64,000 nt of DNA from Alphaproteobacteria bacterium (GTDB taxonomy: Bacteria; Pseudomonadota; Alphaproteobacteria; Micavibrionales; Micavibrionaceae): positions 62,001 through 126,000 of the forward strand of contig JAGNLJ010000005.1 in the NCBI GenBank assembly GCA_017999645.1, in the 5' to 3' direction. Position 1 is the first letter of the stretch. Every line of letters begins with the position of its first letter. A program made the translations under genes and the position numbers. Below the pieces are notes generated by a model, which was given only the letters and a program-made list of their open reading frames with translations, was not told the origin of the DNA and did no database searches. Shown here one piece after another: positions 48,197 to 58,133 of the stretch.

Positions 48197-49177
48197 ATGA
48201 ACCCGGCCCTTCAGCATAAAATCACAGTCGTCATTCCCTGCTACAGGGTTAAAAACCACATCAAAAATGTTGTTGCCGCCATTCCCGATTACGTCGAGCG
48301 TATTTACTGTGTCGATGATGCCTGCCCGGATGGCAGCGGTAATTTCATCCGCGCTGAAATTAAAGACCCCCGCCTCACCCTTCTTAAACATGACATCAAC
48401 CAGGGCGTCGGCGGCGCCATGATCACAGGATATAAGCAGGCTTTAACAGACGGCGCGCAAGTAATCGTAAAAATCGACGGCGACGGCCAGATGAATCCTG
48501 CTCTCATCGAATCCTTCGTGCGGCCCATCCTGACTGGTGCCTGCGACTACACCAAGGGCAACCGCTTTTACAAAGTGGAAGACGTCCGCGCCATGCCGGG
48601 CGCAAGGCTGCTCGGCAATGCCGTCCTCAGCTTCATGACCAAGCTCTCCAGCGGCTACTGGAATCTCTTCGATCCCAACAACGGCTACACGGCCATTCAC
48701 GCCAATGTCCTGCGCGAAATGCCGTTAGAGAAAATCAGCAAACGTTATTTCTTCGAAAGCGATTTCCTGTTCCGCCTGAACACACTCCGCGCCTCGGTGC
48801 AGGACATCCCCATGAGCGCCGTTTACGGCAACGAAGAAAGCAATCTTGTTATTTCAAAAATATTCTTCCCGTTCCTGGCCGGGCACTTCCGCAACCTGTT
48901 CAAACGGATTTTTTACAATTATTTCCTGCGCGATTTTAACATCGCCTCGCTGGAATTGCTCCTCGCGCTGGCGTTCCTGCCCTTCGGTATCATCTTCGGC
49001 CTGTCCCACTGGCATCATTCCAGCGTCATGGGTATCGAGGCCAGCCCCGGCACCGTCATGTTCTCCGCCCTGCCGATCATTCTCGGCGTCCAGTTCCTGC
49101 TCTCATTCCTGCAATACGACATCGAATCTGTACCGAGAGCCTCCCTGCACCCCCGCCTCCAGGCGCAACAACTGTAG
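48197..49177 (+). CDS. Family 2 glycosyltransferase with C-terminal membrane helices
   Basis: A 326-residue GT-A enzyme resembling polyprenol-phosphate sugar transferases (DPM1/GtrB). It has ITVVIPCYRVKNHI, YCVDDACPDGSG (with the DDA metal motif), NQGVGGAMITGYKQAL and KIDGDGQMNP. Two membrane helices follow at about 247-268 and 285-304. It could load a sugar on a lipid carrier for envelope glycans. The next gene starts nine bases later. Confidence 0.88.
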   Translation: MNPALQHKITVVIPCYRVKNHIKNVVAAIPDYVERIYCVDDACPDGSGNFIRAEIKDPRLTLLKHDINQGVGGAMITGYKQALTDGAQVIVKIDGDGQMNPALIESFVRPILTGACDYTKGNRFYKVEDVRAMPGARLLGNAVLSFMTKLSSGYWNLFDPNNGYTAIHANVLREMPLEKISKRYFFESDFLFRLNTLRASVQDIPMSAVYGNEESNLVISKIFFPFLAGHFRNLFKRIFYNYFLRDFNIASLELLLALAFLPFGIIFGLSHWHHSSVMGIEASPGTVMFSALPIILGVQFLLSFLQYDIESVPRASLHPRLQAQQL

Positions 49178-49186
49178 CGACTTAGA

Positions 49187-50509
49187 ATGAAACAGCAGGA
49201 AAAACAACAATATCGCTTCGACCCCGCCCTTTATCCCCGCACCTACAGGTTCAACCGGACTTCGATGATCCTGAGCCTGACCGCCACGTTTCTTTGTCTT
49301 CTTGCGGCTGTCATTGCGTATATTTATATGATTTCGGATTTTCCCGAAACCATTCTGCAGAAACAAAACGCTCCCCTTTTAATCGGGACATTCTTATTTG
49401 TCGGCGCATTCGTACTTCTTCATAATTTCGGAACATGGATACGTCTCCACCCGGATTCAATCCAGTACTCTTTTTTTTACTTCACAAAAACCATCCCGCG
49501 TACGGACCTGGCTTTATGCAGGTCAAAAACCGTAACAGGAAAACAAAAAAATTATATAGCCCCGTTCTCGTCCGGAAGAATGATCCTGAGAACATTGGAA
49601 AGCATGAAAAGAACGATGGGCAGCGACGATGCGCTGGAATCCTGGTGCATGACCCTCCCCGATTATGAAGAAGAACTCGAGCGAAAAAGAAGGGAATTTT
49701 CAGCGCAGCAGCATTCCTGGGGTGTCACGCCCGAAGCGCGTTACAAAACATACAAAATTCTCAAACTCGCGCTTCAGCACATTCCGTTCACGGTAATTGT
49801 TGTAATTATATTTTCAGGAGTATTAATAGATGATCTAAACCCGCAACATTTCCCGTCTTTTCTTCCAGGATATGCTCTTTGCTTGTATTTGATGCCGCTC
49901 GTTGCCGCTGTAATTTATCTCAGCAATCCCCGTGCGTTCACATTCACGCCCTCCATAACGGATAAAATAAAAATAAGCCTTGATAGCCTGTTCATTTTCC
50001 CCGGCTTCCTGGCGGGCTACTGGTTCGTGGGAATTCTTCCAAAGGAAGGCTTGTGGCTGAACGTGTTTGAGGAATACTGGTTCAAAAATCCGTTTTTTAT
50101 GGGGCCATTCCTTGCCTTGTTCCTGCTGCCCTTTCTGCTTGAGGTCAGGCATCACAGAAATTGGTACTACAATCTGCGCATCTTGTTTTTTTATCTGTTA
50201 TTTTCAGCATCCTCAGCAGTCGGAATAATGGCCAGCTATAATGTGCTGTTTGATAAATCGAAACCGATCACTCTTGAAACCCAGGTCGTACGGATCGTTC
50301 AACCTGACAGGCCTAACAAAGCGGATCAAAAACGGCGCGAGATCACGATCACACCCATCGACGGAAAAAACCGCCGCGATCCTTTCGTGAATGTGAGCTA
50401 CGAATTGTACGACCGCGTTCAGCCCGGCGAAAAAATCTGCCATTACGCCTATCCCGGCGCCGCGGGCATCCGGTGGGAAAAATACGATTATTGCCCCGGC
50501 AAAAAATAA
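49187..50509 (+). CDS. Polytopic membrane protein of unknown function
   Basis: A 440-residue protein with about seven predicted membrane helices (the first two near 28-50 and 63-80, and more between 195 and 365). Between the first pair and the rest is a soluble segment that may be PH-like (WIRLHPDSIQYSFFYFTKT, IPRTDLALCRSK). The C-terminal 85 residues are outside the membrane and carry two Cys (KICHYAYPG and YDYCPGKK). No family is recognised. It could work with the glycosyltransferase just upstream, but that is only a neighbour inference. Confidence 0.65.
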   Translation: MKQQEKQQYRFDPALYPRTYRFNRTSMILSLTATFLCLLAAVIAYIYMISDFPETILQKQNAPLLIGTFLFVGAFVLLHNFGTWIRLHPDSIQYSFFYFTKTIPRTDLALCRSKTVTGKQKNYIAPFSSGRMILRTLESMKRTMGSDDALESWCMTLPDYEEELERKRREFSAQQHSWGVTPEARYKTYKILKLALQHIPFTVIVVIIFSGVLIDDLNPQHFPSFLPGYALCLYLMPLVAAVIYLSNPRAFTFTPSITDKIKISLDSLFIFPGFLAGYWFVGILPKEGLWLNVFEEYWFKNPFFMGPFLALFLLPFLLEVRHHRNWYYNLRILFFYLLFSASSAVGIMASYNVLFDKSKPITLETQVVRIVQPDRPNKADQKRREITITPIDGKNRRDPFVNVSYELYDRVQPGEKICHYAYPGAAGIRWEKYDYCPGKK

Positions 50510-50543
50510 GGCCTGACGATGCGAACACCCCCAGACTATTCAG

Positions 50544-50561
50544 ACTATCAAACTCGATAGT
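50544..50561. promoter_or_regulatory. 18-bp palindrome upstream of the quorum-sensing module
   Basis: ACTATCAAACTCGATAGT has perfect 6-bp arms (ACTATC, GATAGT) and lies 57 bases before the start of the receiver gene. An imperfect extra half-site (AGACTAT) lies just upstream at 50533-50539. The length matches LuxR-type boxes (18-20 bp), but the sequence does not match a known lux or tra box. No T run follows, so it is less likely to be a terminator. Confidence 0.45.
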
Positions 50562-50618
50562 ATAAATTTCAGCCCAGCTGGTGTCTGTTTGTACATAACT
50601 CAAACAACCAGGTGGCAA

Positions 50619-51092
50619 ATGCCCTTCGATAAAAGGTGTGAAGCACAGCAAATCCTCGAAGATTTAAAAGCCGTAGCGCCCGAATCAAAGCACGGGAGGT
50701 CGGAAAATGCCAAATTGCTCCTGGTGGAAGATGATCCGTCAAACATCCTGATTGAATCAATTTTTCTCGACCAATGTGGCTATTTCTATGATGTAGCGAC
50801 CAATGGCCGCGAGGTTATCAATAAAGTCTCCACCACGTCTTACGCGTTGATCTTAATGAATATTAACCTGCCCGACATGAATGGTCTGGAGGTGACCCGC
50901 AAATTGCGTGAGATGGAAAAACAGGGCCTGATATCCCATGTGCCGATCATAGCCATAACGGCGCATGTCGCAAAAGGTTACCGTGAAATATGCCTGCAGG
51001 CAGGCATGAACGGATACATCTCCAAGCCGTTTACCCAAAGCCAGCTTTGCAAAAAGATCGAGCAAAGTGTAGTCCGCCAGCAGTGCAACTAA
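50619..51092 (+). CDS. Receiver-domain protein with Asn in place of the phospho-acceptor Asp
   Basis: A 157-residue stand-alone CheY-like receiver. It has the acidic triad start LLLVEDDP (37-39), the switch region IAITAH (Thr114) and the Lys in SKPF (Lys136). The acceptor segment normally LMDIQMP is LMNINLP, so position 81 is Asn. The first 30 residues are an unrelated leader. Such a pseudo-receiver cannot be phosphorylated in the usual way. ATG 50619 has an AGGTGG site. It lies 81 bases upstream of luxR and may be a partner or modulator. Confidence 0.82.
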   Translation: MPFDKRCEAQQILEDLKAVAPESKHGRSENAKLLLVEDDPSNILIESIFLDQCGYFYDVATNGREVINKVSTTSYALILMNINLPDMNGLEVTRKLREMEKQGLISHVPIIAITAHVAKGYREICLQAGMNGYISKPFTQSQLCKKIEQSVVRQQCN

Positions 51093-51173
51093 AAGTGTAG
51101 TGTGTTTTTTATTCTAATTTTTTTGCAACCCGCCTATATATAGCTCAGCAAAACATATAATAGAAAACGCATT

Positions 51174-51908
51174 ATGAAAACCTTACAGGATCAGGTCGCA
51201 CTGCTCAATGAGGCGCGATCCACTGACGAGCTCTTCATAAACCTGGCAAAAATCATGCTCTTCAACGGGTATGACAAAGTGTCATATGGCTGCGCGACCG
51301 ACTGCCCTTCTCTCGGCCTCAAGAAAAAACACGGTCACGCCAGTAATTTCTCCGAAAGTTGGCTCAAACACTACGCCGAATTTGATCTTTCAGGAATAGA
51401 TCCAGTCCACATTCACCTCGTTGAAAAAAGAACGCCCGCCTTCTGGTCGGCCTGCGAGGAAAATGCGTCTTTGGCGTCAAAGCAACTCATGCGCAACGCC
51501 GCCGATGCCGGTTTGAACGGCGGCATCATCATTCCACTTTGCGATGTCGGCGGCGAACTGTCGATGGTCAGCGTTTCAAACACTGAAATCAGCGCGCGGG
51601 AGGAAACCTATGAAACGCTCGCGGCAGTCAACCTTATAAGCACCTATTTTTATGAGAACTATAAATCCCTCATTAAAAAACCCGATCCCGTGTATCTCTC
51701 GCCCCGCGAATATGAAGTTATAAACTGGGCCGCCGAAGGCAAAACCGATTCCGAAATCGCCACCATCACGAGCATAAGCACCGCGACCGTACGCTATCAC
51801 TGGAAAAATATTTTTACAAAATTGAATGTGTTCAGCCGCGTCTCTGCGGTTTCAAAAGCAGTCCAGCTGCAGCTTGTGAAACCCCAATATTTCATGCGGA
51901 AAAAGTAA
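51174..51908 (+). CDS. luxR: LuxR-family autoinducer-responsive regulator
   Basis: A 244-residue quorum-sensing regulator. The autoinducer-binding domain (about 15-160) keeps the key aromatic/acid pattern: SWLKHYAEFDLSGIDPVHIH (Trp, Tyr, Asp) and TPAFW. The HTH domain (about 172-235) has LSPREYEVINWAAEGKTDSE and STATVRYHWKNIFTKLNVFS. It is followed directly by luxI (TAATG overlap), as in many alphaproteobacterial pairs. It should bind an acyl-homoserine lactone and control target genes, perhaps luxI itself. Confidence 0.9.
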   Translation: MKTLQDQVALLNEARSTDELFINLAKIMLFNGYDKVSYGCATDCPSLGLKKKHGHASNFSESWLKHYAEFDLSGIDPVHIHLVEKRTPAFWSACEENASLASKQLMRNAADAGLNGGIIIPLCDVGGELSMVSVSNTEISAREETYETLAAVNLISTYFYENYKSLIKKPDPVYLSPREYEVINWAAEGKTDSEIATITSISTATVRYHWKNIFTKLNVFSRVSAVSKAVQLQLVKPQYFMRKK

Positions 51909-52735
51909 TGGCGAATATTCTCAAAACGAATGAACGCCAGAAGGTTAAAGTATTCTGCTACCCGGCTGGCCATGACGAAGAATTTCCCTTAACTGAAAAA
52001 GAAGAACAGAAAAATCGCTATAAAGTCTTGCGCGGCCTCGGATGGGACGCCGACTATGATGACAAAAAAAGAATCGAGACGGATCAATATGATGTTGCAC
52101 CGACTGTTAAGTTCATCTGTGTGTCACCGTATATGGAAAAATTTCTCGGCAGCGTAAGGCTTATGCCTATGAAATATCTTTCCATGATCAGAGACGCATT
52201 CAGTGACGCTGCCAAACCATCCAGGAATCTTGTCGATCCCGGTTTTCAACTTCCCGAAGACGCTACAGCCGCTGAAATATCGCGCCTCGTCATACGAAAA
52301 GAGTTTTTGAAACCTAAACCTACATCTCACCGCCCGGACAAATTTAGAGAGGCGCGAGATGAAGTCATAGCACGCCTTTTCGTGGCCATGATGGCTTACT
52401 GTCGTTACCCGGAAGTCAGGCCTCGCACTCCTGAATTAAATCCTGAGGATGAAGTCGTCATCGAAAGAATTTTTGGAATTTCCTACGTCGAGGCGTGGGA
52501 ACCGGTCTTTGCGAAACGCGGGCTGACACCGAATTTTATTGGTCCTGCTAAATGGGTGCCGACCGTAGAAAAACAAGACCCGTTCTCTGATGAAGAAGCC
52601 CCTGTGGAACATCTACAAGCCGGCTGGATGGAGGCAAACTGGGACGTGGCAGAAGAGCTATGCACGCACTATGGCCTCACGGCACCATATTTTTACACCA
52701 AACGGGATGAGATACAGCCCTTTGTGGATATCTAA
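51908..52735 (+). CDS. luxI: LuxI-type acyl-homoserine-lactone synthase, extended form
   Basis: A 275-residue autoinducer synthase. Conserved parts are NRYKVLRGLGW (Arg37, Trp46), ETDQYD, CVSPYMEKFLGSVRLMPM and EISRLVIRKEF (Arg126). LuxI proteins are usually 190-220 residues; the extra length lies in an N-terminal extension and a C-terminal tail of about 75 residues, so a related but distinct substrate group is possible. Coupled to luxR. It uses SAM and an acyl donor; the acyl chain is unknown. Confidence 0.87.
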   Translation: MANILKTNERQKVKVFCYPAGHDEEFPLTEKEEQKNRYKVLRGLGWDADYDDKKRIETDQYDVAPTVKFICVSPYMEKFLGSVRLMPMKYLSMIRDAFSDAAKPSRNLVDPGFQLPEDATAAEISRLVIRKEFLKPKPTSHRPDKFREARDEVIARLFVAMMAYCRYPEVRPRTPELNPEDEVVIERIFGISYVEAWEPVFAKRGLTPNFIGPAKWVPTVEKQDPFSDEEAPVEHLQAGWMEANWDVAEELCTHYGLTAPYFYTKRDEIQPFVDI

Positions 52736-52746
52736 CGGGAATGCGG

Positions 52747-52836
52747 TGGCGGACAGGGAGGGATTCGAACCCTCGATAGGCTTGCGCCTATGCCAGTTTT
52801 CGAGACTGGTACCTTCAACCACTCGGTCACCTGTCC
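52747..52836 (-). tRNA. tRNA-Ser (anticodon CGA)
   Basis: A 90-base class II tRNA. The acceptor stem GGACAGG pairs with CCTGTCC, followed by discriminator G and an encoded CCA. The anticodon stem CCAGT/ACTGG holds the loop CTCGAAA, anticodon CGA, for UCG codons. The long variable arm (CATAGGCGCAAGCCTAT) and the T-arm (GAGGGTTCGAATCCCTC) are as in tRNA-Ser. Confidence 0.95.
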
Positions 52837-56497: not shown

Positions 56498-56881
56498 GTG
56501 CTGCTTAAAATTATATATCAAAACACTGTGAATTCAGACGCTCAATCTTACCGGGAAGGTATCGATAAAAGAGTCGACCGGATTTTTGGCGATGCCGAAG
56601 AGAACTGTTTAATCAAATTTGAGGGCAAAAAAGACGAACTGCGTGCCAGCCTGACAATCGACCAGATTTGCGAACTCAGGGAATTCCTGGGAGAGAAATT
56701 CAATAAATTGAACCGACAATTGATAAAGGAAACTCCAAAATTTTCCCAGACACGCACAGCAGTCAAAATGACTGCCAATTTAGGAAACATGGAATTAACA
56801 GAAACGGCGTTCAGCGTGGAAATCGCCACGACTGAAAATGAATATGCAGAACCGCTGCAAATCCCGTATCAGAATTCATAG
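56498..56881 (+). CDS. Unknown protein, cluster member 1 of 5
   Basis: A 127-residue protein that I do not recognise, with a GTG start (56498). Predicted layout: strand MLLKIIYQN, helix with YREGIDKRVDRIF, strand pair CLIKFEGKKDELRASLTI, helix CELREFLGEKFNKLNRQLI, and a final strand pair RTAVKMTANLG and TAFSVEIAT. Its opening is almost the same as that of the next gene (MLLKI). Soluble, no signal peptide. The 150 bases upstream are AT-rich and hold its likely promoter. Confidence 0.6.
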   Translation: MLLKIIYQNTVNSDAQSYREGIDKRVDRIFGDAEENCLIKFEGKKDELRASLTIDQICELREFLGEKFNKLNRQLIKETPKFSQTRTAVKMTANLGNMELTETAFSVEIATTENEYAEPLQIPYQNS

Positions 56882-56900
56882 AGAGTAACAGAGAGTAACT

Positions 56901-57344
56901 ATGCTGCTTAAAATTTTATTCATAAACGCCGCCGAACCCGGCTCGCTGCCCCCCGAAATTGAATCGGGCCTTGATGACATCATCACCACGTACCTGAAGA
57001 ATGTTGCAAAAGAACATCGCGACGCGCGCGTCATCGTCATCGATGAAAAACGGCACGAGTTGACAATCGACGTTCCCATGCAGGAAGGCTCGCGCCGGAT
57101 TAATAATCTGCAACACATGATCCATGAAATGAACAGAAGATATATAGATAGCGCAGTACCATCATCACAAATCAGGCTTACAGCCAAGATGAAGGTTGAT
57201 GAGCCCACGGAGATATTCGCCGACAGCGCTACATGCACAATCCAGCTTTCCAGCACACCCACCAGTAAAGATGACATGCTGTGGATGGGATTACTTCAAC
57301 CGGAAAGCGTCGAACAAGATAATTTCGAAATAGCCCGCTGGTAA
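56901..57344 (+). CDS. Unknown protein, cluster member 2 of 5
   Basis: A 147-residue protein starting MLLKILFINA, with a helix containing EIESGLDDIITTYLKN, a strand-rich section ARVIVIDEKRHELTIDVPM, a helix RINNLQHMIHEMNRRYI, and the ending strands IRLTAKMKVDEPTEIF and TCTIQLSST. The order of elements is the same as in member 1, so the two look like diverged duplicates. It starts 19 bases after the stop of member 1. Function unknown. Confidence 0.62.
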   Translation: MLLKILFINAAEPGSLPPEIESGLDDIITTYLKNVAKEHRDARVIVIDEKRHELTIDVPMQEGSRRINNLQHMIHEMNRRYIDSAVPSSQIRLTAKMKVDEPTEIFADSATCTIQLSSTPTSKDDMLWMGLLQPESVEQDNFEIARW

Positions 57345-57362
57345 AGCCCACAGGAAACAATC

Positions 57363-57767
57363 ATGTTCGTCACATTGGCTTTTAGAAACATCGTCGCCGT
57401 CCCTGAAACATTCGATCCGCTAAATCCGCCGGAAACAAGGGAGCATGTCCAGGGTGCAATAGAAAGACTCGTCGAGTCTTTCGAGGAAAAAGGCTTCCTG
57501 CCTTATCGCAACGATCACGAAGGCATCCAGTACGGCTTCATGGCCGAAGACTGGGCAAAAGCCAACAAACTTGCCGAAGATTTCAGGCGTCAATTCAATC
57601 GCCACAATCAGACATGGATGAAATCACCTTCGAATTCTATTCTTGTCCCGGCAACTATTTTTAAAATCTACCGCTTCGAACACCAGATCGCCTGCGTGGC
57701 AAATATGTATGCGGTGCTGGCGGTAGAACCCAGAAGGGTTGCAGCCGCTCTTGAATGCAGTAACTGA
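57363..57767 (+). CDS. Unknown protein, cluster member 3 of 5
   Basis: A 134-residue protein with an AGGAAA site before ATG 57363. It opens with strand MFVTLAFRNIVAV, then a helix VQGAIERLVESFEEKG, a short loop YRNDHEGIQYGF, helix AEDWAKANKLAEDFRRQFNRH and final strands ATIFKIYRF and NMYAVLAVE. The same order of elements as in members 1 and 2 is seen, although the residues differ more. Function unknown. Confidence 0.6.
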   Translation: MFVTLAFRNIVAVPETFDPLNPPETREHVQGAIERLVESFEEKGFLPYRNDHEGIQYGFMAEDWAKANKLAEDFRRQFNRHNQTWMKSPSNSILVPATIFKIYRFEHQIACVANMYAVLAVEPRRVAAALECSN

Positions 57768-57779
57768 TCAGGGGCCGCA

Positions 57780-58133
57780 ATGACAATAATAAAAATTTTC
57801 TTCAAAGACTCCACCGAGTTCCACGACCTGGTTTCACCGGAAGATCGAGCACGCATCACCGAAACAGTCGACACTTACATCAAATTTTTCAACGGCCTCT
57901 TCGGCACCCTGCACAGCAACAATAATAATGACGACGATGGAATTAACATTGCCGAGGGCCCCGTTGATGGCTGCATCAGGAGCTTCGACGAAATGGCGCG
58001 TAATTTCTCGCACGTCGGCACCCAGTTGAGTCAGGAAATTTTTTTGTCGGCCAGCATGGACGTTAATCGTCAAAAAGAACCGGTTATTCTCACGATAAAT
58101 ATTTCCGGAACGCCGAATACGTCGCTTAACTGA
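57780..58133 (+). CDS. Unknown protein, cluster member 4 of 5
   Basis: A 117-residue protein with an AGGGG site before ATG 57780. It begins MTIIKIFFKDSTEF, followed by a helix (RARITETVDTYIKFFNGLF), an Asn/Asp-rich loop (HSNNNNDDDG), another helix with SFDEMARNFSHVGTQL, and two strands EIFLSASMDVN and PVILTINIS. It follows the same layout as the others. Function unknown. Confidence 0.6.
   Translation: MTIIKIFFKDSTEFHDLVSPEDRARITETVDTYIKFFNGLFGTLHSNNNNDDDGINIAEGPVDGCIRSFDEMARNFSHVGTQLSQEIFLSASMDVNRQKEPVILTINISGTPNTSLN

Follow-up and report, generated by a model that had tools for sequence, protein, structure and literature searches.

The closest described systems to the locus reported here are LuxI/LuxR pairs, the luxI loci and AHL-controlled phosphorelays of roseobacters, and receivers that lack the phosphorylated aspartate. 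A survey of luxR/luxI topologies mentions no receiver, response regulator, or two-component system in its main text (PMC3386692). For roseobacters (KLH11), a 2014 review described the regulator joining LuxR to CckA-ChpT-CtrA as unidentified (PMC3907830). M. aeruginosavorus has a single luxI along with two luxR genes and one named luxO; its genome paper described their role as not clear (PMC3189940). Of the residues that replace Asp in aspartate-less receivers, Asn ranks second in frequency (16%; PMC4395418), and a 2025 review called the switching of such pseudo-receivers a mystery (PMC12632262). The rec-luxR-luxI module described below bears on the purpose of quorum sensing in Micavibrio-type bacteria.

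Gene content of the rec-luxR-luxI locus

The window, i.e., the whole 64,000-nucleotide stretch analyzed, comes from a Micavibrionaceae genome (G000; 2.06 Mb in 23 contigs). Three genes on its forward strand encode a stand-alone, aspartate-less receiver (REC) of 157 amino acids (positions 50619 to 51092), a LuxR protein of 244 amino acids (51174 to 51908), and a divergent LuxI-type AHL synthase of 275 amino acids (51908 to 52735), and these coordinates and strands were the same upon reexamination as in the original prediction. The first base of luxI is also the final base of the luxR stop codon. An in-frame TTG (50589) lies upstream of the receiver ATG (50619); the ATG was preferred because a sister Micavibrio species (G001) also has an ATG at this point of its locus, preceded by a similar CAGGTG. 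The spacer between the receiver gene and luxR (51093 to 51173) contains T-rich and CCCGCCTATATATA stretches. A simple promoter scan detected no consensus promoter in this spacer, which may hold a luxR promoter; the region at 51101 to 51200 was 83% identical to the sister locus, versus 69 to 77% for the receiver coding region.

The receiver open reading frame matched PF00072 (Response_reg) with 91.1 bits (E value, 6.5e-26; cutoff, 30.2). An asparagine had been proposed to occupy its phospho-acceptor position, and the translation confirmed this residue as Asn81 (codon AAT, 50859 to 50861). The accompanying claim that all other receiver residues are kept was likewise borne out by alignment: the remainder of the active site (the acidic pair E37/D38, T114, and K136) is present, as are Y133 (K-3), P85 (D+4), G89 (D+8), and the Ala after T114 (T+1), with landmark positions defined as in PMC12632262. 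Given that the DD2 position is non-acidic in approximately 80% of pseudo-receivers and that only 47% of them retain both the T residue and an aromatic residue at K-3 (PMC12632262), the window protein is, judged by its sequence, an unusually intact aspartate-less pseudo-receiver in the terms of that review. Like other aspartate-less receivers, it combines a PF00072 match and a predicted (beta-alpha)5 fold with the lack of a phospho-acceptor Asp; the Asp that marks DivK- and CheY-kind receivers was found only in its orthologue from another genus (G033). An AlphaFold2 model (mean pLDDT, 82) had the (beta-alpha)5 order, and residue 81 was the last of strand 3. The nearest folds identified by Foldseek were the receivers of AHK5 (4euk, histidine kinase 5) and PA1611, GacS D1, and DivK, and sequence profile matches agreed with this result in pointing to hybrid-kinase-type receivers. 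Among 80 aligned receiver domains from the loci examined, 77 had Asp at the phospho-acceptor position, 2 had Asn (the window receiver and its sister), and 1 had another residue, which came from a shifted alignment.

LuxR contains autoinducer-binding (PF03472, 76.9 bits) and GerE (PF00196, 59.9 bits) domains, both above the cutoff, and matched RhlR, LasR, and TraR chains in the PDB. LuxI passed the PF00765 cutoff narrowly (26.6 versus 24 bits). Residues E57, D59, D62, R84, E123, and R126 were invariant in seven family homologues, and a profile of LuxI homologues matched solved AHL synthases (3p2f, E value of 3.7e-22; LasI, E value of 2.7e-16), with which the conserved acidic/Arg stretch aligned. 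On the strength of these invariant residues and matches, LuxI is a plausible AHL synthase enzyme despite its low PF00765 score.

Just upstream of the module, a 440-amino-acid membrane-like protein without a Pfam match is encoded at 49187 to 50509 and is absent from the sister locus. Farther downstream, a row of small open reading frames at 56498 to 58133 (127, 147, 134, and 117 amino acids) has similar-looking N termini and possibly represents a tandem family.

Distribution and co-inheritance of the module

The rec-luxR-luxI arrangement is a real, conserved, and rare module. Of the 142 genomes examined from the order, 3 have a receiver orthologue, namely, the window genome, its sister G001, and G033 of another genus (280 to 296 bits; next match, 137 bits). 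The original prediction required that the receiver gene be linked to luxR and luxI in other genomes. In all three receiver-bearing genomes the receiver gene was directly upstream of luxR and the three genes had the same order and strand, a linkage that rules out a chance gene neighborhood. The three receivers formed one clade (support of 92/92; 93% of bootstrap trees). The nearest relatives of the window LuxR were those of the two other module genomes (92.6 and 61.6% identity; next, 40.7%), which also gave the highest LuxI scores (505 and 107 bits; next, 36 bits). Relatives of this LuxI occurred in 4 of 104 family genomes (E value, 0.001), i.e., the three module genomes and, weakly, G011. G002, which belongs to the same genus as the window genome, is without the module. 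In G002, the slot from a glycosyltransferase gene to a tRNA-Ser gene holds a CRISPR-like array with 37-nucleotide repeats at 66- to 67-nucleotide spacing (L112:4621-4901) as well as an unrelated 111-amino-acid open reading frame.

In 39 family stretches covering all 40 PF03472 matches, a lone receiver directly 5' of luxR was found only in the three module genomes; two other family loci (L073 and L074) have an Asp-type lone receiver nearby in a different arrangement. Among 385 evenly drawn genomes of the class, a draw apparently without G001 and G033, only the window genome had a receiver orthologue. These class genomes contained 77 PF00765 matches, of which 75 were covered by 74 stretches; the window's own match and a sub-cutoff match (G286:C73) were left out. 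In none of the 74 class stretches did a lone receiver immediately precede luxR-luxI, and a general alphaproteobacterial arrangement was thus unsupported; luxI was detected by the profiles in 72 of these stretches and luxR in 58, so that a few loci may have been missed. A receiver match of any kind was present in four: L238, where a 441-amino-acid receiver-bearing frame adjoins luxI and a 127-amino-acid Asp-type lone receiver lies 2.8 kb off; L201 and L228, where long receiver-bearing frames adjoin luxR-luxI; and L177, where a 275-amino-acid DNA-binding regulator with a receiver lies approximately 2.5 kb away. An alignment of LuxR found no relative on viral contigs, and plasmid matches to LuxR were all below 60% identity (28 to 32% for the eight listed).

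A tRNA-Ser (cga) gene predicted by ARAGORN occupies positions 52747 to 52836 on the reverse strand, its 3' end being 11 bp past the luxI stop codon, and in G033 a distance of 20 bp separates the module from the 3' end of an opposite-strand tRNA-Gln (ttg) gene. The module-tRNA junctions (window, 52735-52747; L067:4581-4602; L068:8442-8460) span 11 to 20 bp. That the module abuts a tRNA 3' end in both genera suggests that it was inserted at such ends. Direct repeats gave no support for integration at the tRNA, as none of at least 16 bp was found in positions 49100 to 52760 of the window.

History of residue 81

Residue 81 is encoded by AAT (Asn) in the window, AAC (Asn) in G001, and GAT (Asp) in G033. 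Asp in relatives had been expected if the Asn was a recent mutation. Asp did occur at genus distance, in G033, but the sister has Asn, so Asn81 is conserved between the two Micavibrio species and not in the other genus. Because the sister encodes Asn by a different codon, a recent private mutation or error at this residue was ruled out.

The window and G001 receivers share 69% amino acid identity, with a dN/dS of 0.085 and a dS of 2.1, which is near saturation and therefore imprecise; the neighbors of the receiver gene have dS values of 0.24 to 0.69 and amino acid identities of 87 to 99%. At the DNA level, positions 50600 to 51280 (the receiver gene and the 5' part of luxR) are 69 to 77% identical to the sister locus (L068), versus approximately 90% for the flanks. 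Since this segment is far more divergent than its flanks, one of the two sister species probably carries a diverged allele at the receiver/luxR start, as if replaced. Asn is thus maintained in two alleles that differ strongly. The presence of Asp in the outgroup G033 and in nearly all other receivers makes Asp the likely ancestral state, and the sequences describe the change from Asp to Asn as an old one retained in one genus. The pseudo-receiver state is consequently a feature of one genus and not of the module as such, which does not require phospho-deadness.

A lux-box-like palindrome in front of the receiver gene

A 20-bp lux-box-like palindrome lies 5' of the receiver gene (forward strand, 50543 to 50562), with a 16-bp core, CTATCAAACTCGATAG, at 50545 to 50560. 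Its counterparts are CTATCAAAGTCGATAG in G001 and CTATCAACATTGATAG in G033, and the distance from the palindrome center to the receiver start is 66.5 bp in G000 and G001 and 60.5 bp in G033. The published lux box has the form NNCT-N12-AGNN (PMC7432010), and the window site, CT-ATCAAACTCGAT-AG, fits this form as a candidate. It was the single site in the window at up to two mismatches. When the 180-bp upstream regions of the three modules were shuffled with dinucleotides preserved, none of 20,000 sets shared such a palindrome. Of 104 family genomes, 8 contained the exact core, which was present in every module genome (3 of 3) and in 5 of the 101 without a module; the backwards-core control was found in 1 of the 104. 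The single occurrences in the five non-module genomes were taken as background. Two 1-mismatch palindromes on contig C12 of the window genome were dropped as candidates, being inside transporter and outer-membrane genes; as both of these further boxes are in coding sequence, the palindrome search found no wider LuxR regulon in this genome.

Of 27 family luxI genes, 10 had the form CTA-N10-TAG in the 150 bp before the gene, mostly at -51 to -84 (0.29 expected from mononucleotide shuffles), and none of 41 family luxR genes did; this form was picked after the window site and a first scan had been seen, and the family count therefore serves as a check with that form and does not represent an unbiased search for motifs. 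Counted among the 27 are the luxI genes of the three modules, none of which has an upstream CTA-N10-TAG. At six loci (L075, L089, L090, L094, L096, and L097), a CTAC-N8-GTAG palindrome lies 59 to 84 bp upstream of luxI and is likely the lux box of the family. Since the palindrome precedes luxI elsewhere and the receiver gene here, the receiver appears to occupy the autoinduced slot. The site makes the receiver a probable target of LuxR, and AHL control of the receiver is likewise probable. The original prediction had considered the receiver solely as a possible binding partner of LuxR or of a kinase.

Proposed mechanism and alternatives

We propose a three-gene, autoinduced module with a receiver that acts by dose as a decoy, a model whose chances of being right or wrong as a whole we judge to be even. 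It builds on gene content, co-inheritance, Asn retention, and the position and conservation of the box, all of which were observed. LuxI would make an AHL, and LuxR with bound AHL would bind the palindrome at 50543 to 50562 and activate transcription of the receiver gene. Read-through from the receiver gene would carry transcription into luxR and luxI and close a positive loop, so that the amount of receiver would be proportional to cell density. With Asn in place of the phospho-Asp, the receiver would bind an Hpt or kinase domain stoichiometrically, as a phosphate-free decoy or dominant-negative protein and not as a phosphate carrier. In the other genus, where Asp is kept, the protein in the same slot would accept phosphate and serve as a sink or relay. 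The inferred steps of this model are AHL control, read-through, and the binding of a partner.

The receivers of AHK5, PA1611, and DivK interact with Hpt or kinase domains. Competition within a phosphorelay was our first choice of function because the nearest relatives of the window receiver meet such domains and because it has retained its binding fold but can no longer accept phosphate. Hpt matches, as potential partners, were few in these genomes: there were three each in G000, G001, and G002 and six in G033, and 11 of the 15 were in open frames of more than 700 amino acids. We tentatively suggest that LuxR acts directly to increase the amount of a phospho-dead receiver, which in turn blocks a His-Asp phosphorelay, and that density thereby gates a kinase pathway without phosphate transfer. 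If this is true, the Asp version in the other genus would be a phosphate sink, and one residue would set the sign of the link. The receiver is a candidate through which density sensing may be linked to other signaling chains, and this link can be tested.

The receiver could instead bind LuxR directly and tune it, as an anti-activator or coactivator from the same operon. Tight linkage and co-inheritance with luxR favor this explanation, as does the existence of regulators adjacent to luxI/luxR in the RsaM and RsaL topologies (PMC3386692), and co-induction would provide a feedback brake. We nevertheless consider it unlikely, in view of the differing identities between the sister species (93% for LuxR versus 69% for REC), which give no sign of matched change, and of the resemblance of the receiver to those that bind kinases or Hpt domains. 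The fast divergence of the receiver (69% amino acid identity versus 87 to 99% for its neighbors) and the loss of the phospho-site in one genus would also fit a passenger with no specific function, situated between the lux box and luxR-luxI and retained by linkage. Such a passenger is quite improbable given the low dN/dS, the retention of the fold and of all pocket residues at saturated synonymous divergence, and the position of the gene upstream of luxR-luxI in two genera.

A very unlikely explanation is that Asn81 is a pro-residue that deamidates to Asp, with the receiver maturing over time to a phosphorylatable form. The retention of the catalytic residues and of the T+1 Ala, D+4 Pro, and D+8 Gly, unlike in typical pseudo-receivers, is in its favor. 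However, Asn81 is followed by Ile in both species, and Asn-Ile is a context of slow deamidation in peptides. Reversion of an Asn receiver to Asp has been reported, in a paper that calls the functional consequences unexplored (PMC4395418).

Comparison with described systems

The original prediction held the arrangement to be unfamiliar, and our literature search similarly found no description of receiver-luxR-luxI in titles or the beginnings of abstracts. New here is that all three modules have a lux-box-like, putatively LuxR-bound palindrome ahead of the receiver start. A receiver under such a site, occurring naturally in Asp and Asn forms in one slot, makes three questions testable: the role of quorum sensing in Micavibrio, the connector between LuxR and a phosphorelay, and the switching of pseudo-receivers.

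With LuxI/LuxR pairs, the locus shares the luxR-luxI tandem, the autoinducer-binding and GerE domains, the AHL synthase family, and a lux-box-like site, but the box here precedes a receiver gene that is first in a presumed operon, and LuxI is divergent. DivK-kind and hybrid-kinase receivers (PA1611 REC and AHK5 REC) are the nearest in fold and sequence. DivK carries a phospho-Asp. The two best sequence matches of the window protein likewise show an aligned phospho-Asp, whereas the window protein is not phosphorylatable at that position.

Aspartate-less receivers such as RitR have the PF00072 fold with the phospho-Asp replaced (PMC4395418, PMC12632262), as in the window. Unlike them, the window receiver is stand-alone and linked to luxR-luxI, keeps all other catalytic residues, and has an Asp-bearing orthologue in the same slot in another genus. 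Roseobacter luxI loci of topologies H, I, and J similarly place a phosphorelay gene beside an AHL synthase gene; there, a histidine kinase or HK/REC gene is upstream of an orphan luxI (PMC3824088), whereas here a lone receiver gene comes before luxR-luxI. In Ruegeria KLH11 and Dinoroseobacter, CckA-ChpT-CtrA is under AHL control (PMC3907830, PMC4046655), which resembles the present case as an alphaproteobacterial path from quorum sensing to a phosphorelay; in contrast to those systems, the receiver here is itself a candidate direct target of LuxR.
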